A stretch of 64,000 nt of DNA. Source: Pseudomonadota bacterium. Its GTDB lineage: Bacteria; Pseudomonadota; Alphaproteobacteria; Rhizobiales; Hyphomicrobiaceae. Below are positions 52,203 to 63,974 of this stretch, piece after piece. The first letter of the stretch is position 1, and each line of letters opens with the position of its first letter. The translations under genes and the position numbers were made by a program. Below the pieces are notes generated by a model. It was given only the letters and a program-made list of their open reading frames with translations, did no database searches and was not told the origin of the DNA. The DNA is taken from assembly GCA_018242295.1 (NCBI GenBank), contig JAFECE010000004.1, forward strand, positions 124,001 to 188,000. The letters are read 5' to 3'.

Positions 52203-52880
52203 TCACATCGGCGAGCCGATGACGAGTGTCCAGAACGATTTGAATTCCGTCTTGGGATCTTGAACGAGCGCGATGCCCATGTGCACGGCGTCCGGAGTGA
52301 GAAGGTTCTTGTTGTGACCAGGGCTCTCTTCCCAGCCCTTCAACACTTCGTTGAAATTGACCTGCCCCGTGCCGACGTTCTCGGCCGTGAGACGCGCGTG
52401 ATAGCCGGCCCGCTTGACGCGATCCCAGGGGTTCGAACCGTCCGAACCGTAATGGGAAATGCGATCCCACTTCGCGAGATCGCGCGAGTGCGACTTGGCG
52501 GCTTCTGTCAGTTCCGGATTGAGCTTCAGCGGCTTCAGGCCGTGCTGCTTGCGATAGGCATTGATGAGGTCGCGCGCCATCTCCGCATTGAGAGACGTGC
52601 GCGAATAGTCGCGATCGGCAAGAACGCCGGGCGCCGCCTTCTCGAACGTGCCCGAGGGCGCCTTGTCGAGCGCTGCGACTTTCACTTCGCGCGGCGTTGA
52701 AGGCTCACCACCGAGTCCGACACTTTTGACTGACGGCGAGAACGATGCAGATGGCGAAGGCGACGAGGCCAACGACGCTGTCGTATCGGGATCTGTAAAT
52801 CCCGATGAGATGGATGACGAACCGAGACTGCAACCGGCAAGCGCGGTCGCAAGTCCGGCAGTAAGCGCAACGCGATACAT
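52203..52880 (-). CDS. CAP/SCP-domain lipoprotein
   Basis: A 225-residue protein. The lipobox LAGC near residue 16 predicts lipid attachment. A Ser-rich linker is followed (from about 100) by a CAP domain: MARDLINAYRKQHGLKPLKL, LTEAAKSHSRDLAKWDRISH, LTAENVGTGQVNFNEVLKGW and SPGHNKNLL, with His and Glu in the expected cavity positions (SRDLAKWDRISHYG; AENV; PGHN). Bacterial CAP proteins are envelope proteins of unclear activity. ATG 52880 was chosen for the lipoprotein signal. Confidence 0.88.
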   Translation of the reverse strand: MYRVALTAGLATALAGCSLGSSSISSGFTDPDTTASLASSPSPSASFSPSVKSVGLGGEPSTPREVKVAALDKAPSGTFEKAAPGVLADRDYSRTSLNAEMARDLINAYRKQHGLKPLKLNPELTEAAKSHSRDLAKWDRISHYGSDGSNPWDRVKRAGYHARLTAENVGTGQVNFNEVLKGWEESPGHNKNLLTPDAVHMGIALVQDPKTEFKSFWTLVIGSPM

Positions 52881-53246
52881 TTTGGCTACCCCCGGCACGG
52901 GACGTGCGGCTGTCCTCAGCATTGCCGGAAATCCGTTAACTGGTCGTTAACGCTAACGAGTTGCGATTCGCGCGCGACCTCGCGCCGCCACTGCGAACTG
53001 TCAGAGCCACTCATTACGCCGGACCCCTCACGAACTCGAACCCCTGCCCCGAGGCCCAATAATCGCCCGAATAAGGTGTCGCGATTTTGACCATGGCGCG
53101 GCGAAAGCCCGGCGGCACGGCCTGGGCCGAGCATTTCGAGGGCATAGACGCGTTGTGGGTCAAATGCGGGCGCCCCTTGGAAGTGAGGGATCAATCATTG
53201 AAGTTGTCGAGACAGCGCTTCTGATTCGCGCGGGGAGACCAATTCG
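52881..53246. other. divergent intergenic region
   Basis: About 365 bp between the CAP lipoprotein and the two-gene ATPase unit, which is read in the other direction. No gene, repeat or clear operator is recognised. Confidence 0.35.
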
Positions 53247-54404
53247 ATGAGTGCAGCCATCGAACAATCAGAACGGACAGCCGCAACCGGACCTTCGAGC
53301 CATCTCGGGGTCCGCGATCTCCTGCTGCTGAGAATCGCAATTGGCGGAGCGACGCGCGCTGACCTTCAGCGCGACGTTGCGCCGTTGCTGACCCCGCGGA
53401 TCTCCGGCACCGAATTCCGCCGCGCCGCCGAGCTGGCGCTGAGCACGCTCGCCGGCTCGCACGCGATCACCGAGTCGAAAGGGCGTCTGACGGCAAGTCC
53501 AAAAGGCCTGAAAGCGACGGCAGACCTGCTGCCAACGTCCCGCGCCTTCCCCGAGACATGGGCCGACGTGAAAACCGCGCTCGTCCTCGCCGCGGTCGGC
53601 GCCAATGACAGCCCGGCGGTTAGGAAGGCCGTCCAGCGCACCGAAGGTCTCGCCGCGCTCGTGTTGCAGCATCATTTTGGAAAATCGACGTCACGCGTCC
53701 TCTCGCCCGCCGATCTGAGAGCCGAACTCGCGATCGTCGCCCTCGAGCGCGCCTTCGGCAATAAGATAAAGACCGGACTCGGCAAGGGCGCGGGTCTGCC
53801 GGCGAAACCCGGCAGGCTTCTCGCCGGTCAGCTCTTCAAGCAGCCGCGCGAGATTGCCAGCGACGGCAAGCTCATCATCGGCTTGGCGTGCGAGATCGCC
53901 GGTAGCCGCGAAACGTCTCTGCCCGCGCTCGAACTCGCACTCCTCAGGGCTCTCATGATGCCCAAGGCCGAGAGCGTTGCCACGCTCCCCGCACGTCCGC
54001 GCAGCGAGCCACAGCGGCGACCGGTCCGCACGACGGCGCCGAACGCCGCGAACGATCGCACGCCGCTCGCAACCAGCCAGCCATCGCTGTTCGAAGTTGT
54101 ATCCCCTCCTGACATGCCAGAATTCTGTCGCGCTGTTGTCGATGCGGCACGACCGGTCGCGGAGGGCTGGCCAGGCAACCGGAAGGCGTTTATCTCTTTG
54201 GTATGGAAGGCGATTCGCAACGCGCGTCCCGACTGGGGTCTATCCGAGATTGCGTTCAAAGGAATGCTCGCGGAAGCCCACCGTTCAGGTCAGCTCGAAC
54301 TGGCGACCGCTGATCTCAAAGACGGTCGCGATCTCAAATCGCTCGAGGACTCGAAGATCCTCTACAAAAACACTGTCTGGCACTTTGTGCGCGTTCAAGA
54401 TTGA
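53247..54404 (+). CDS. hypothetical protein with a winged-helix-like C-terminus, partner of the two-P-loop ATPase
   Basis: A 385-residue soluble protein. Residues about 20-100 look like a helical DNA-binding fold (DLLLLRIAIGGATRADLQRD, AAELALSTLAGSHAITESKG then RLTASPKGL, where T/S-x-x-G-x marks a wing). A Pro/Arg-rich linker (about 250-285) leads to a C-terminal unit (290-385): EFCRAVVDAARPVAEGWPGN, KAFISLVWKAIRN, LSEIAFKGMLAEAHRSGQLE, LATADLKDG, ILYKNTVWHFVRV. This last unit reads like a winged helix. Its stop is 17 bp before the ATPase ATG, so the two are cotranscribed. Family not recognised. Confidence 0.65.
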   Translation: MSAAIEQSERTAATGPSSHLGVRDLLLLRIAIGGATRADLQRDVAPLLTPRISGTEFRRAAELALSTLAGSHAITESKGRLTASPKGLKATADLLPTSRAFPETWADVKTALVLAAVGANDSPAVRKAVQRTEGLAALVLQHHFGKSTSRVLSPADLRAELAIVALERAFGNKIKTGLGKGAGLPAKPGRLLAGQLFKQPREIASDGKLIIGLACEIAGSRETSLPALELALLRALMMPKAESVATLPARPRSEPQRRPVRTTAPNAANDRTPLATSQPSLFEVVSPPDMPEFCRAVVDAARPVAEGWPGNRKAFISLVWKAIRNARPDWGLSEIAFKGMLAEAHRSGQLELATADLKDGRDLKSLEDSKILYKNTVWHFVRVQD

Positions 54405-54421
54405 AGGCATTCCGGTACGCA

Positions 54422-57400
54422 ATGGGTGTTGAAGGCGCTTCCCTCAAACCGACGTTTGCTCCCCCGCTCGCGCCTGACAAGCTGAGCGAAGCGTTCGAGC
54501 ATTCGATTACCTGGGAAGACGATCTCTGGCGCGCCGATCCCGTCGACGTGCCCGAGATCCACGCCAAGGCACGCCAGAAATTCAACGATCTTCTGACGAG
54601 CGTCACGTCCGGCCGCGGTTACCACATGCAGGATCGCATCCTGCTGTTCCACGGCCAGTCGGGCGCCGGAAAAACCCATCTTTTGCGGGCTTTGCGCACC
54701 GATTCCCATCGCACCGGCCAGAGCTACTTCGGCTACGCGCAGATGACTCCGGACGTGCAGAATTACGCCGATTTCTATCTGCGCCGTCTCGTCCACTCAC
54801 TCGAAAAACCGTACGACCCCGATCGCTTCGGCGAGTCCGCCCTGTCGCGGCTGACGAACCGCATGGTGCTCGACTCCGAGGTCATCTCGTCAGCGGATCT
54901 CGAAAAGCTTCGCGACGCGACGCTCGACGACAAGCAGCTCGCAGGGCTCATCCTGCGCCTCGCCGACCAGATCGTCGCCTGCGACAAGTTCCAGACACGC
55001 GAGCTCGACATCAACATAGTGCGCGCGCTCCTTTATCTCCAGCGCCACGATCCGCGTATCGATCAGCGCGTGAGGCAGTATCTCAACGGCCGCCAGTTGA
55101 CGGCAATTGCGCATGAAGCCGTCAGCGCGCTCGACCCGAACGATGGCGAAGACCGCGCCTTCGAAATCATCGCCGCGCTCGGCGCGCTCATCTGGACTGT
55201 CGATCGTGCCGCGCTCGTGTTCTGCATCGACCAGGTCGAAGACCTGCGCTTCTTCGACAATGCCGAGGACCGCTTCCAGCGCGCCGTTCGCGATCTCATC
55301 CAGATCGCCAACCGGCTGACGAACGCCATCATCATCATCTCTTGTCTCGAAGACTTTTATGGACAGGTGCGCAGCCTCGTCGCGCAGTCGTATATCGATC
55401 GCATCGAGAAATCCGGCCCGGTCCTGCTCCGCGAAAGCCGGACGCCCGAAGAAGCGCGCCTCATCATTTCGAAGCGGCTCGCCCATCAGTCGGAGTTGAG
55501 CGGCGGCGGCCTGAGCTTCCCCGACGCTTCGCAATTTTTCGGGCCTCAGTTCTTCGAAGAATTCGGCGGTCTCTCGACGCGCCGGCTATTAGAGCATGCG
55601 CAGTCGCGCCTCCGCGAGGCAACCTCGACGGAAGGCGACGAGCGCGAGCGGGAGCCAGAAAGGCCGTCGTTCATCTCGACGCTTGCCCAGGCGCTCGGTC
55701 AGGTCGTCGGTTTCGGCGGCCAGGACGATGAAGCACCCTCGACGCTGTCCGCAGTGCAGTTCCGCGAAATGTGGGAACGCTTCGCCAACGAAAGCGAAGC
55801 CGAGATGCCCGCCGACGATCAGGAGCTGGTGGACGTTCTATCGGCCGCCCTTCTGCTCGCCCGCGACGAATGGGGTCGGTCGATCGAAGTCACCGTGAAG
55901 CGGCTGGAGCTTGGCGACGATTTGCCGGCGTTCGATTTGACCGTCCGCCACCGCACCGGCTTTGCCAACGACGTGCGCGTGTTCCTCTGCAATCGCCCGA
56001 CACAAGGCGGCGGTCTAAAGCGCCAGCTCGACAAGGTGCTGACGGCAATGCAGGGCAAGCCCTGCTTCATGCTGCGCGCCAGCGACTTCCCGCCGAACAA
56101 GAAGAACCAGACGGCGCAGGCCTTCCGCAAATTCCGCGACGGCGGCGGACGCCAGCTGCTCGTGCCGATCCCGGAGTGGGAACGCATGATGACGGTGCGC
56201 GAGTTCACCGCCCATCACCGTAACGACGCCGGCATGACGCAATGGCTCGAAGGCACCAAGCCGCTGTCGAGCCTGATCTCGATCATTCATCTGTTGCGTC
56301 TCGATCTGCTTGGGCGTCCCGTGCCGCGCCTCGTCGCCAAAAACATGGACGACCCGCAATCGACGCTGGACGGGTTCGACGCCCTCTCCGCCGACCAGGC
56401 GCGCGCCAACCAACAGGGCGAGGGCGACAACGGCCTTGCGGCGAACGACGACGATCTGCCGATGTCCGTCATCCTCGACGAGAACGGCAGCTACGGCGCC
56501 AGCATTCTGGCGGGCGGCGAAAAGAACAATCGTGGTCGCGCCGTGACAATGAACAAGAGCGTGCTGAAGCGGCACGCGGCATTCCTCGGCGGCTCGGGCT
56601 CCGGTAAGACGACGCTGGCGCTATCGCTTATCGAGCAGCTGCTTTTGCGCGGCATTCCAGCCGTCCTGATCGACCGCAAGGGCGATCTCGCAAGCTACGC
56701 CAATCCGGACGTCTGGCGTTCCGACGACAACGAGTCGGCTGAACGGCGCGCCGAACGCGAAAAGCTCGCCGACGCAATCGACGTCGCCGTCTATACGCCG
56801 GGCCGCGCCTCGGGCCGGCCGATTTCGATCACGCTCCTGCCGAACGGCATCAATGAATTGCCCGATCACGAGCAGCAGCTGCTGGCGAACCTTTCCGCTG
56901 CCGCGCTCGGCGAAATGCTTCACCTGAAGAACTCGGCGACGCACCAGAAGCAGTCGGGCGTTCTGGCGGTCGCGCTGCGCATCTTGGGCTCGCTCTCGAC
57001 GAACGAAGTGACGCTCGCCGACCTGATCCATCTTCTTGAAGACGAGCATCCCGAGCTTACCGATCAGACGCAGCGCATGGACCCGTCCGGCAAGCTGCGC
57101 CGTGATCTCGTCGCCCAGCTCGACTCGCTCCGCCTCCGCAACGCCGCGCTGTTCGAAGGCGGCGGCGAAAGCCTGCGCATGGACAGCCTGCTTGGCCTCG
57201 GCAAGTACCAAAGACCAAACCGTACACGCCTGTCCGTCATCTACACGGGCTTCCTCGGCGACAACGAGAATATCCTGTTCTGGGTCTCGCAGTTCCTGTC
57301 GGAAGCGCTCCGCTTCTGTCAGCGCAACCCGAACGATGAGCTGCAGGCCGTCGTCATGTTCGACGAAGCCGACCTTTACATTCCCGCGAACTCGAAACCG

Positions 57401-57787
57401 GCAACCGCCGAGCCGCTGCAGAGCTTGCTGAAGCGCGCCCGCTCCGCCGGTCTCGGCATGATGCTCGCCACCCAGTCACCGGGCGACCTCGATTACAAGA
57501 GCCGGGACCAGATCACGAGCTGGTTCATCGGCCGCGTCCGCGAAGACACGGCCCTCAGAAAGCTGAAAGCCGCCTTCCAGTCGGAGTCCGGCCTCGATCC
57601 GGCGACCGCACTTCCAGGCCAGACGGTCGGCGAATTCCACCTCGTGCAGGAAGGCCTCGTCCGGCCCATGAAGGCACAGCGCTCGCTAATCGCCGCCGAG
57701 CAGGTCCCGTTCGACCGGATCGAGCAATTAGCTGCTGAAACAAGAGGCACCGACGAGAGGCAGCTTCGTCTTTTCGACCTTCGATAA
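54422..57787 (+). CDS. large ATPase with an N-terminal AAA-like and a C-terminal HerA/FtsK-like motor
   Basis: A 1121-residue protein with two P-loops. The first is LLFHGQSGAGKTHLLRALR (about residues 75-93) with Walker B VFCIDQVEDL (about 270). The second is LGGSGSGKTTLALSLIEQLL (about 722-741), then LIDRKGDLASYANP, Walker B AVVMFDEADLYIPA (about 975) and MLATQSPGDLD, the pattern of HerA/VirB4 translocases. The middle (about 470-620) contains RVFLCNRPTQGGGLKRQLDK and FPPNKKNQTAQAFRKFRDGG. ATG 54422 is chosen; a TTG at 54401 would overlap the previous stop. HerA-type motors pump DNA in repair, conjugation or phage defence. Codon use is like that of the core genes. Confidence 0.75.
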   Translation: MGVEGASLKPTFAPPLAPDKLSEAFEHSITWEDDLWRADPVDVPEIHAKARQKFNDLLTSVTSGRGYHMQDRILLFHGQSGAGKTHLLRALRTDSHRTGQSYFGYAQMTPDVQNYADFYLRRLVHSLEKPYDPDRFGESALSRLTNRMVLDSEVISSADLEKLRDATLDDKQLAGLILRLADQIVACDKFQTRELDINIVRALLYLQRHDPRIDQRVRQYLNGRQLTAIAHEAVSALDPNDGEDRAFEIIAALGALIWTVDRAALVFCIDQVEDLRFFDNAEDRFQRAVRDLIQIANRLTNAIIIISCLEDFYGQVRSLVAQSYIDRIEKSGPVLLRESRTPEEARLIISKRLAHQSELSGGGLSFPDASQFFGPQFFEEFGGLSTRRLLEHAQSRLREATSTEGDEREREPERPSFISTLAQALGQVVGFGGQDDEAPSTLSAVQFREMWERFANESEAEMPADDQELVDVLSAALLLARDEWGRSIEVTVKRLELGDDLPAFDLTVRHRTGFANDVRVFLCNRPTQGGGLKRQLDKVLTAMQGKPCFMLRASDFPPNKKNQTAQAFRKFRDGGGRQLLVPIPEWERMMTVREFTAHHRNDAGMTQWLEGTKPLSSLISIIHLLRLDLLGRPVPRLVAKNMDDPQSTLDGFDALSADQARANQQGEGDNGLAANDDDLPMSVILDENGSYGASILAGGEKNNRGRAVTMNKSVLKRHAAFLGGSGSGKTTLALSLIEQLLLRGIPAVLIDRKGDLASYANPDVWRSDDNESAERRAEREKLADAIDVAVYTPGRASGRPISITLLPNGINELPDHEQQLLANLSAAALGEMLHLKNSATHQKQSGVLAVALRILGSLSTNEVTLADLIHLLEDEHPELTDQTQRMDPSGKLRRDLVAQLDSLRLRNAALFEGGGESLRMDSLLGLGKYQRPNRTRLSVIYTGFLGDNENILFWVSQFLSEALRFCQRNPNDELQAVVMFDEADLYIPANSKPATAEPLQSLLKRARSAGLGMMLATQSPGDLDYKSRDQITSWFIGRVREDTALRKLKAAFQSESGLDPATALPGQTVGEFHLVQEGLVRPMKAQRSLIAAEQVPFDRIEQLAAETRGTDERQLRLFDLR

Positions 57788-61423: not shown

Positions 61424-61574
61424 GTGGGTGTGGCGGGGCCAAAATATAATCTCCCATTCATCGCAGCGCTGAAAATCCGCCAATACTCAAACACCGGCGA
61501 GCCGCAGTTGCGACATCAAAAACGCTGACTGCACGCGGAACCTGTACTCCTCAAACGGGGATGGGTTGGCGGTG

Positions 61575-63974
61575 ATGAACCTGGATGGTCCTGAACTCGG
61601 GCGCGGGACGGGCTCGATGCGCCTCTACGCCGATACGCGCGCGAGCGATGCACCGCAAAAGCCGCCGCGCGATTGGAAGCGCCTGATCCTCGTCATCGGC
61701 CTCGGCGCGCTGTCGTGGGTCGCAACCTATGTCGGCATGCTCGAGCTGATCGAAGCCAACATGGGCGACCTGCCGCTCGTCCACCGCGTCATCGTCGGCT
61801 TTTCCGTCGCCATGCTGATGACGATGATCATCTGGCTGCTCGACCAGCTCTTCCGCCCGCAACCGTTCACGACGAAACTCTTCTATGCGGGCGGTTACGT
61901 ATTCCTGTCCCTGATCTCGATCGGCTTCGGCTTTGGCTTCTATTGGAAAGTTCTCGAAAGCCGGGGCGAAGCCTCCCGTTCGGCCGAGAGCGCCGTCAGC
62001 CAAGTGCAGAATTCCTTGCACGGCGCCGAAACACGCCTCGAACAGCTTCAGGCGACGCTGGTGCAGCTGACCCAGGTCTCGACCGACAAAGCCGAGCTCG
62101 AACGCGCGAAAGGCACGTCCTGCCCGAATTCGAAGCCGGGCGACGGCCCACGCCGCAAGATGCGCGAAGACGACGCGCAGCGCTTTTCCTTTGCCTCCGA
62201 TTTCGTCAAAGGCCGCATCGGCGCCGTCAAAGGCGACATGACGGCGCTGAACGGCGACCTGGCGAAAATCGTCTCCGCCGACGCGTCGACCTTCGATCCC
62301 AAAACCGGAACCCGCAACGAGTTCATGCGCGCGCTCGGTCGCAAGCTCGACCTGACCGTGACCGGCTTCAACGCTTTCCGGACCGACCCGCAGCTTCGCC
62401 AGATCCGCTCCGACCTCGCTGACCGCGCCGAGCGCACGACATTCGCCGACGGCAAGAACGCCGCGATCTCCTGCCCCGATCCTCAGTTGCAGATGGCGCT
62501 TCGCGGCGTGGTCAAAGCCATCGACCAGCTCCCCGAGCTGCAGAAACCGGAAATTGCCGCCGTCGAAGGTTCCGAGGCGACGATCGAAGCCTTCCGCCGT
62601 CTGACGACGACCTTTTACGGCCTTCTTTCGTTCAAGATGCCGCCCTCCGCTGACGAACTGCGCGAATTGCAGAAGAAGGCAATCCAGTCCGTCGAAAGCC
62701 CCGACGCCGAGGCCCGGGGCGCGCGTGTCTCTGCCGGAGATCAAACCGCAGGCCTCTCGAAACGCGACTATGTTCCGCTCGCCGTCGCGCTATTCGTCGA
62801 TCTCTGTCTCTTCCTCGTCTCGATGGGACAGCGCCCCGGCGGCCGCCTCGACGGCCTGGTTCCAAAAATGCAGGCCGCCGAGCGCGGACCGGTTATCGAG
62901 ATCCTCTCGCGCTTCAACGATATTCACCGCGACAAGCAAATCCGCGAAAACTTCGAGCTGTTCCGGCACGTCGTCTTCGACATGAACGGCGACTACTACG
63001 TCGCCGTGCCGCTCGACGCCCCGCCGCGCATGAACCCGGCCGAACGCGAGAACCTGCGCGTTGAAGCGCAGCTTCTGGCCAATCTCTTCGCAAGCTTTGA
63101 AAGAGAAAAAATCTTCAAGCGCACGATGCTCCCCCTGACGGGAAGCATTCAGAAACGCTTGCAACGTCAGGGCTCGAAGTTCGCGGGCTCGGAATCGTTC
63201 CGCGTCTACAAGTTCACCAACGGCGCCTGGTCGGACATCATCCTCGGCGCCGTCATGGGGGCCGCCCGCCGCGCCGAGCGAAGCGATGCCACGGGCGCGC
63301 GTTCCAGCGGACGCGAATCCAGTCCCGAGATTACGAAATCGGAAACGTCCATCCCCGAACCGCCAGCTTCACCAGCTGATGACCGCAACGAGCCACTGGC
63401 CGCGCCAATTTTCGAACGGCCCATGCGCGCCCAGCGAGCGAACCTTGCTATCGACCCCGAGCACGCGGCCCGTTTCGGCCCCTATGCCGAGATCTATCGG
63501 CCCGAACCCGAGTTTGCGCCGCAAGCCCCGCGTGTCCGCCGCCCGCCGCCGAAACCCGATCCCGAGGCGGACGTGACCGTGAAGACGGCTGCGAACAGCA
63601 ACACCATTCAACCGGCGCCGATAGCACCGCCTCCTCTGCCGGAATTCCGGCCGGCGACCGTCGTCACGATCCCGCGCACTTCGCAAATCCGGAGCGAAGG
63701 GGCCGCTGTCACGCCCGACTCGTCAGAACCGCGCGCCAGCGTGACGCTGCAGCGGGAAACCGCGACCTTTTCCGTGCCCGTCGGCGAGGCGGTGATGCCG
63801 CCCTCTCTCGAAGCCGCCTTGCGCGGGTTGGACGGCCGCTGGAGCGAGCTGGAAAGCGAGCCGCCCGAGGTTATCGGGGCAGGTGAACAAGTTGCAGCCC
63901 TCGGCGCAGAAATGCAGCTTTCTGAAGACGATAGGGCACTTATCCGGCGCATAGCGCCACCGGCGGCCGAATGA
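61575..63974 (+). CDS. four-helix membrane protein with coiled-coil extracytoplasmic and proline-rich cytoplasmic regions
   Basis: A 799-residue protein, family not recognised. Three N-terminal helices (about 34-56, 70-93, 100-125: LILVIGLGALSWVATYVGML, VAMLMTMIIWLLDQLF, YVFLSLISIGFGFGFYWKV) are followed by a coiled-coil-like region of about 270 residues (SRSAESAVSQVQNSLHGAET), a fourth helix (PLAVALFVDLCLFLVSM, about 400), then a cytoplasmic domain with RFNDIHRDKQIRENFELFRH, FDMNGDYYVAVPL and a Pro-rich tail. Its stop overlaps the next ATG (ATGA). ATG 61575 or TTG 61566 starts it. It may form a scaffold with the upstream PBP-like protein. Confidence 0.7.
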   Translation: MNLDGPELGRGTGSMRLYADTRASDAPQKPPRDWKRLILVIGLGALSWVATYVGMLELIEANMGDLPLVHRVIVGFSVAMLMTMIIWLLDQLFRPQPFTTKLFYAGGYVFLSLISIGFGFGFYWKVLESRGEASRSAESAVSQVQNSLHGAETRLEQLQATLVQLTQVSTDKAELERAKGTSCPNSKPGDGPRRKMREDDAQRFSFASDFVKGRIGAVKGDMTALNGDLAKIVSADASTFDPKTGTRNEFMRALGRKLDLTVTGFNAFRTDPQLRQIRSDLADRAERTTFADGKNAAISCPDPQLQMALRGVVKAIDQLPELQKPEIAAVEGSEATIEAFRRLTTTFYGLLSFKMPPSADELRELQKKAIQSVESPDAEARGARVSAGDQTAGLSKRDYVPLAVALFVDLCLFLVSMGQRPGGRLDGLVPKMQAAERGPVIEILSRFNDIHRDKQIRENFELFRHVVFDMNGDYYVAVPLDAPPRMNPAERENLRVEAQLLANLFASFEREKIFKRTMLPLTGSIQKRLQRQGSKFAGSESFRVYKFTNGAWSDIILGAVMGAARRAERSDATGARSSGRESSPEITKSETSIPEPPASPADDRNEPLAAPIFERPMRAQRANLAIDPEHAARFGPYAEIYRPEPEFAPQAPRVRRPPPKPDPEADVTVKTAANSNTIQPAPIAPPPLPEFRPATVVTIPRTSQIRSEGAAVTPDSSEPRASVTLQRETATFSVPVGEAVMPPSLEAALRGLDGRWSELESEPPEVIGAGEQVAALGAEMQLSEDDRALIRRIAPPAAE

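Follow-up and report, generated by a model that had tools for sequence, protein, structure and literature searches.

At positions 53247-57787 of a 64,000-nucleotide stretch of DNA (positions 124,001 to 188,000 of contig JAFECE010000004.1, hereafter the window) from a member of the Hyphomicrobiaceae, two genes lie 17 bp apart on the + strand and form a two-gene unit. The first (gene 1, product P0001) encodes a protein modeled with two winged-helix-type domains, and the second (gene 2, product P0002) a large ATPase in which two different motors share one chain. Here we describe this pair by computational analysis, together with its distribution and its relationship to a group of proposed anti-invader systems.

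Architecture of the pair

A preliminary description, made from the sequence alone, had recognized two motors in one chain and a paired DNA-binding-like protein, and the genes, motifs and structural models agree with it (Table 1). It had called the first motor AAA-like; this domain is indeed a P-loop motor, but of the Orc/Cdc6 type and not a generic AAA. The anatomy is very probably that of an Orc/Cdc6-type AAA+ domain, a degenerate restriction endonuclease (REase)-like middle domain and a HerA/FtsK motor, accompanied by a partner with two winged helices.

Neither protein is covered over its whole length by a curated family, a PADLOC model or a solved structure. For P0002, Pfam matched AAA_22 at residues 70-147, and DUF87 and HerA_C at about 703-1071; the best PADLOC model was mad8 (6.6e-20), in addition to several HerA models; and two PHROGs families, one terminase-labeled and one unnamed, matched at 3e-16 and 6e-16, with their best stretches in the second motor. 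The NCBIfam matches shown were far under the curated cut-offs. For P0001, searches of Pfam, PADLOC, NCBIfam, PHROGs and the PDB sequences were all negative, as was that of its family profile against the PDB. A MukF/JetA-like kleisin was among the top Foldseek rows for P0001, with a best E of 0.012, a TM of 0.19 and an rmsd of 44, and this assignment was not used. A profile match of both proteins to a characterized system, which would have refuted the earlier description, was not obtained.

The middle domain of P0002 matched neither Pfam nor the PDB sequences. A degenerate REase-like fold is suggested by the secondary structure predicted for it and by a single weak Foldseek match of the P0002 model (EndoMS 5gkj, E 0.066, aligned range not shown). 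D505 is present in 25/25 sequences, and in the third strand (D/E)xK is found in none of the 25 and (D/E)xR519 in 15, P0002 included.

The claim that no system could be named for the pair stood only in part: no curated family accounts for it, but there is a precedent in the 'HerA/FtsK capture' neighborhoods proposed in 2024 (PMC10853773). According to the text of that paper, these couple an Orc/CDC6 AAA+ with an inserted inactive REase to a HerA/FtsK motor, also hold winged-helix proteins and an active REase, with the parts joined in one polypeptide or spread over several, and are proposed to intercept invading DNA. The inactive REase is described there as inserted after the AAA+ core and before a C-terminal winged helix-turn-helix (wHTH); a wHTH following the REase-like domain is not resolved in P0002. 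Like the Orc/Cdc6-linked capture systems of that text (clades 2, 4 and 5), P0002 has an Orc/Cdc6-type AAA+ followed by a middle domain of predicted REase-like topology, then a HerA/FtsK motor with a Q sensor-1 and an arginine just upstream, and its partner is a fast-evolving winged-helix protein; the two winged-helix-type domains predicted in P0001 correspond to the winged-helix component of the parts list. Unlike those systems as the text presents them, the pair has no active nuclease that we could find in it or near it, and it is inherited vertically at a fixed locus of one clade and not carried in mobile neighborhoods. Set against the text of PMC10853773, the pair resembles the capture parts list minus the active nuclease. 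The REase-like middle domain and the lack of the nuclease that accompanies its relatives (see below) are what the present analysis adds to the preliminary description.

Table 1. Coordinates of the two genes, their domains and motifs (positions in the window), and of the operons of the distant relatives (positions in their own loci).
Feature	Residues	Position	Strand	Remarks
Gene 1 (P0001), 385 aa		53247..54404	+	Winged helix, helical middle, disordered linker, winged helix; AF2 model pLDDT 82.9
Gene 1 N-terminal winged-helix domain	22-94	53310..53528	+	
Gene 1 helical middle domain	105-243	53559..53975	+	Predicted, AF2 model
Gene 1 disordered, unconserved linker	244-289	53976..54113	+	pLDDT <50 over most; mean majority fraction 0.26 (residues 244-286)
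Gene 1 C-terminal winged-helix-type domain	290-385	54114..54401	+	Best conserved part of gene 1; AF2 model and conservation
Gene 2 (P0002), 1121 aa		54422..57787	+	Orc/Cdc6-type AAA+, REase-like middle, HerA/FtsK motor
Gene 2 Orc/Cdc6-type AAA+ domain	25-401	54494..55624	+	
Gene 2 first Walker A, GQSGAGKT	78-85	54653..54676	+	Invariant in 25/25
Gene 2 first Walker B region, VFCIDQVEDL	266-275	55217..55246	+	D270-Q-V-E-D274-L275 invariant in 25/25
Gene 2 middle domain	444-634	55751..56323	+	Predicted alpha-beta-beta-beta-alpha-beta-alpha-beta; read as degenerate REase fold
Gene 2 disordered linker	635-690	56324..56491	+	pLDDT <50 over most; no invariant columns
Gene 2 HerA/FtsK motor	691-1121	56492..57784	+	
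Gene 2 HerA Walker A, GGSGSGKTT	723-731	56588..56614	+	Invariant in 25/25
Gene 2 HerA Walker B, MFDEADLY	979-986	57356..57379	+	D981 and E982 invariant
Gene 2 candidate arginine-finger residues, upstream of sensor-1	R1005, R1007	57434..57442	+	Invariant; assigned by comparison with the text of PMC10853773
Gene 2 sensor-1, ATQSP	with Q1018	57467..57481	+	Invariant; HerA/FtsK hallmark glutamine according to the text of PMC10853773
DUF559, small winged-helix-like protein, dual-motor operons		L081:5182-10191; L083:5111-10245; L084:5241-10209; L160:3745-8838; L161:4720-9796		

Nuclease-linked relatives and other HerA systems

Full-length homologues of P0002 were found in three plasmid-collection records (Methylobacterium aquaticum, Nonomuraea gerenzanensis and Tsukamurella tyrosinosolvens), two of which, Nonomuraea and Tsukamurella, look chromosomal (one is 11.85 Mb long and one has ribosomal protein genes), and in two further genomes of the order (G449 and G465). 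Profile comparison (hhalign) of the gene 2 family with the three plasmid-collection sequences gave a probability of 100 and an E of 3.8e-44 over 999 columns, at 21% identity. The dual motor comes last in all five loci, after a DUF559 nuclease and a protein of 223-235 aa, and the genes overlap or lie at most 16 bp apart. The nuclease was identified as DUF559 by Pfam in the three plasmid-collection loci, and those of the other two loci gave BLAST hits to them (best E 3e-50 and 9e-33); the small protein appears winged-helix-like from its sequence pattern. Such operons span two phyla, with members in Actinomycetota and Hyphomicrobiales, and are scattered, occurring in 3 of 72,556 plasmid-collection records and 2 of 199 genomes of the order, together with one partial copy with an in-frame stop. 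We regard this operon as a defense candidate, for which no name was found in PADLOC or in the literature, most subscription journals being outside the search; literature searches on the same nuclease combination and on Hyphomicrobium together with HerA likewise showed no paper on the pair itself.

The DUF559 operon shares with the pair a full-length homologous dual motor, and has a small protein, winged-helix-like by reading, ahead of it. It differs in having a nuclease in first position and in being scattered, and its small protein is not demonstrably a homologue of P0001. By tblastn, no DUF559-type nuclease was detected in 86 carrier loci (78 and 8 loci, many of them short stretches). Stand-alone DUF559 genes are present in 22/41 genomes and in none of six Hyphomicrobium genomes that carry gene 1 (G002, G009, G012, G014, G018 and G019). 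As these six carriers have no stand-alone copy, the DUF559 family is not an obligate partner, and with none in the 86 loci either, we rejected it as a dedicated partner. Pfam identified no nuclease among eight scanned neighbors in the window (43.8-64 kb, four short open reading frames (ORFs) left out) and ten neighbors from seven other loci, 7 of these 18 giving no match whatever. On the Xanthobacter plasmid pXAUT01 (L082:7823-10278) we also noticed a relative of gene 1 (probability 97.6, E 2.8e-12) together with a relative of gene 2 that corresponds to the AAA+ half only (probability 98.0) and is cut short beside an insertion sequence element.

Several other systems were compared with the pair. 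In the BREX-related capture (BRC) variants, the components are separate proteins, according to the text of PMC12839542. Unlike BREX with its BrxC, or BRC, no PglZ, GNAT, TGT or DUF4007 match was obtained among the eight window neighbors, and PADLOC, searched with the pair at E up to 1, matched no BREX model. DndFGH/DptFGH likewise use a HerA-type motor (DptH 7es4 matches weakly, E 0.016) and a multi-winged-helix partner, DndG, as the text of PMC10853773 has it. They differ in that no DndF kinase or active REase was found here, and the weak DndH profile matches (5e-7) concern the HerA part. The likeness to HerA-NurA and DUF4297-HerA lies in the HerA-type motor family, DUF4297-HerA 8zir being among the Foldseek rows. 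In these and related two-gene systems HerA is paired with a nuclease or effector, and to our knowledge they have no Orc/Cdc6 domain; unlike HerA-NurA, the pair has no nuclease by Pfam among its scanned window neighbors. Mad8 of MADS (PADLOC PDLC04140), a profile of 314 positions, is the best PADLOC match and concerns the HerA part only, and of the other MADS models nothing matched the pair beyond a weak P-loop match to mad3 (0.036), the window neighbors having been scanned with Pfam only. Unlike FtsK, P0002 scores 19 bits against FtsK_SpoIIIE, under the 24-bit cut-off.

Distribution, selection and genomic setting

Gene 1 was found in 39/60 genomes: all 22 of the genus (source genome included), 13 of 14 other family members and 4 of 24 from other families of the order. 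Across 385 genomes of the class, its profile retrieved the source genome only, plus one 20.6-bit match with an in-frame stop. At E 1e-80, gene 2 was detected in 28/297 genomes of the order (13 from the family, 8 from one other genus and 7 single); at E 1e-25, it was detected in 1/289 genomes of the class, the source genome, and in 2/299 of the phylum sample, the source and one of the same order. We kept 78 distinct named loci of 130 found, 52-99% identical, whose labels include Hyphomicrobium, Filomicrobium and various Hyphomicrobiales metagenome-assembled genomes (MAGs), some of them plainly uncertain. Gene 1 and gene 2 are adjacent and on the same strand in 72/72 loci with upstream DNA; the conservation check proposed at the outset therefore shows the pair kept as a unit.

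A rpoB tree was built from 28 chosen genomes, 14 carriers from nine families and 14 others (two further carriers, G032 and G052, were dropped, having no rpoB match). The carriers form one group but for one exception, with 2 changes versus a mean of 9.7 in shuffles, although the carrier branch has an SH-aLRT of only 85. The exception is a family member with a 1.8-Mb genome, 95% complete, where the search did not detect gene 1. The mean identity of the HerA domain is 75% versus 82% for RpoB, and HerA-domain and RpoB distances are moderately correlated (Spearman 0.42, 12 genomes, 7 of 2000 permutations as high). Against five relatives, gene 2 had a dN/dS of 0.02-0.06 and gene 1 one of 0.16-0.23, and gene 2 is more conserved than seven neighboring gene families in 95-100% of locus pairs. 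A phage or plasmid origin was rejected: viral contigs (25 pattern stretches) yielded no confirmed relative, phage records gave only two HerA-region matches, to a yjgR-annotated gene, and of the 7 plasmid records matched none covered 80% of the query. The earlier suggestion of an old resident function, as opposed to a recent island, agrees well with this clade-wide presence, fixed locus and purifying selection.

In 8/8 Hyphomicrobium genomes the distance from dnaA to gene 1 is 60-67 kb. The upstream neighbors, a CAP-domain secreted protein (in 46/72 loci) and a D-Ala-D-Ala carboxypeptidase, recur even in distant carriers, and the downstream neighbors vary between loci. Pfam assigns the eight scanned window neighbors to envelope, transport or oxidoreductase functions or gives no match, and no defense gene was found among them; for the ten from other loci it gives transporters, a MarR regulator, a Y-family polymerase and a nitrite/sulphite reductase, or no match. 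Further downstream in the window (61566-63974), an 802-aa ORF that follows a transglycosylase-domain gene has no Pfam match at 1e-5. In three other families (L120:11394-12533; L121:6391-7296; L123:12947-14782) the pair has a convergent gene for a ParA-type ATPase beside it; within the family, five genomes from other genera carry an unlinked ParA relative, and Hyphomicrobium gives weak matches only. With adjacency in these three other families only and no linkage in Hyphomicrobium, ParA was rejected as a partner. The Y-family DNA polymerase gene (impB/mucB/samB), at L050:13546-14886, runs convergently to the pair, and a similar gene lies downstream in L049. Beyond the pair in one family (L122:649-4299) come a gene for a PP2C-type phosphatase, identified by Pfam, and a large one that may encode a protein kinase, by sequence impression only.

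As to regulation, the Rfam scan of 44-64 kb gave no match to an RNA element. Taking GTTC-N7-GTTC as the alphaproteobacterial LexA box consensus, we found no box near the pair and one elsewhere in the window, where 2.3 are expected, and SOS control was rejected. The only CtrA-type site in the 64 kb, for which we assumed the consensus TTAA-N7-TTAA (0.13 expected), is at 52936-52950, upstream of the gene of the CAP-domain secreted protein (52203-52922, minus strand). Such a site is present in 37/46 loci with the CAP gene upstream (0.11 expected). We assign it to the CAP gene and not to the pair, since it is absent in 7/7 loci that have sufficient upstream sequence and in which the search for a CAP gene was negative; an eighth locus without a CAP gene found, L008, which is cut by a contig end, has the site. 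CtrA control of the pair was thus rejected, and the pattern suggests cell-cycle control of the CAP protein.

Proposed working and competing explanations

Taking together the order of the motors, their invariant motifs, the clade-wide conservation at one locus and the absence of a DUF559-type nuclease nearby, we lean towards the view that the pair represents a branch of the Orc/Cdc6-HerA capture kind that is inherited vertically, has no linked nuclease and now serves as resident DNA machinery. Its long-term residence without a nuclease is likely, and whether genome maintenance is its main role is evenly poised. We infer that the two proteins form a complex and act in the following order. The two-winged-helix protein would bind DNA or a chromosomal partner and anchor the complex; the Orc/Cdc6-type AAA+ domain would assemble on DNA in an ATP-dependent manner and position or load the C-terminal HerA ring; and the ring would translocate double-stranded DNA or strip proteins off it, with the degenerate REase-like domain as a putative DNA-binding scaffold. 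In the distant relatives, the reeled-in DNA would be cut by the DUF559 nuclease, whose gene opens the operon. Because this cutting step is missing in the pair, its output is most likely movement or remodeling of the cell's own DNA, that is genome maintenance, and not restriction; the cutter would have been lost here and not originally lacking.

Several observations weigh against this view. The AF2 model of gene 2 is middling (pLDDT 64, with the HerA part low), and Foldseek with either model gave no match at E 0.001 or better. As (D/E)xR stands beside the invariant D505 in 15 of the 25 sequences, inactivity of the middle domain is likely, not sure. Apart from its C-terminal domain, gene 1 is fast-evolving (43% versus 68% mean identity), which would also suit an invader-facing sensor. 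Two of the eight window neighbors and five of the ten elsewhere have no Pfam match at all, and an unrecognized nuclease may be among them. Gene 1 has no significant similarity to the small protein of the DUF559 operons (probability 4.6%), and in one genome of another family (G050) gene 1 was not found, gene 2 beginning there at a contig end. The cutter may have been lost here or gained later in the other branch, and core residence by itself is compatible with defense.

Indeed, the pair may still act against invaders, its motor intercepting phage, plasmid or conjugating DNA as a core immune function, which would explain its clade-wide presence. It could block without cutting, cut by its own middle domain, or hand the DNA to a nuclease encoded elsewhere. 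A nuclease stands beside all five distant full-length relatives examined, the text of PMC10853773 proposes an anti-invader role for this set of domains, and the best PADLOC match is to the HerA-like model mad8. Defense without a linked nuclease is a serious rival: gene 1 is fast-evolving, a middle domain that retains D505 and often (D/E)xR may have kept some activity, and a nuclease could conceivably act in trans. We nevertheless judge it rather unlikely, given a single fixed locus in nearly all sampled family genomes, strongly purifying selection, no defense gene among the scanned window neighbors, and a DUF559 family that is not an obligate partner, the trans search having covered that family only.

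A role in chromosome movement, attractive as it is in such a clade, is a good deal less probable. Hyphal members of the clade pass their chromosome through a narrow hypha into the bud, and a DNA translocase conserved across Hyphomicrobium and Filomicrobium, origin-proximal in the former and adjoined by a ParA-type ATPase gene in three other families, could serve this passage. However, the pair is also found in many uncultured lineages whose morphology is not known, the ParA gene is unlinked in Hyphomicrobium, and the conserved CtrA-type site belongs with the CAP gene. A Rhodomicrobium-labeled MAG (L064) carries the pair, but it shares one genus with a Methyloligella-labeled MAG. We give equally little credence to the fuller scenario in which the nuclease was stripped from a defense-type capture machine in the ancestor of the Hyphomicrobiaceae and sister families, yielding an essential chromosome translocase, possibly the hypha-to-bud motor.

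That the pair is a decaying remnant of a restriction system, as a middle domain without (D/E)xK and the lack of the relatives' nuclease nearby might suggest, is very improbable, since it is contradicted by the gene 2 dN/dS and by both P-loops, the sensor and the arginine residues being invariant in 25 sequences. Replacement of FtsK as the terminus-resolving motor, which a HerA/FtsK-clade motor in the core genome might recall, is almost certainly wrong, as strong separate FtsK/SpoIIIE matches (best E per genome 7e-60 to 4e-75) exist in 12/12 genomes, 11 of them carriers.

If the pair is indeed resident machinery of the capture kind, a DNA motor of anti-invader kinship would have been fixed as core machinery throughout a bacterial clade, and would offer for study a natural Orc/Cdc6-HerA engine without a linked nuclease. 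One would then expect its phenotype, in a non-pathogenic genus that can be cultured, to concern growth, segregation or repair, with or without an effect on phage.

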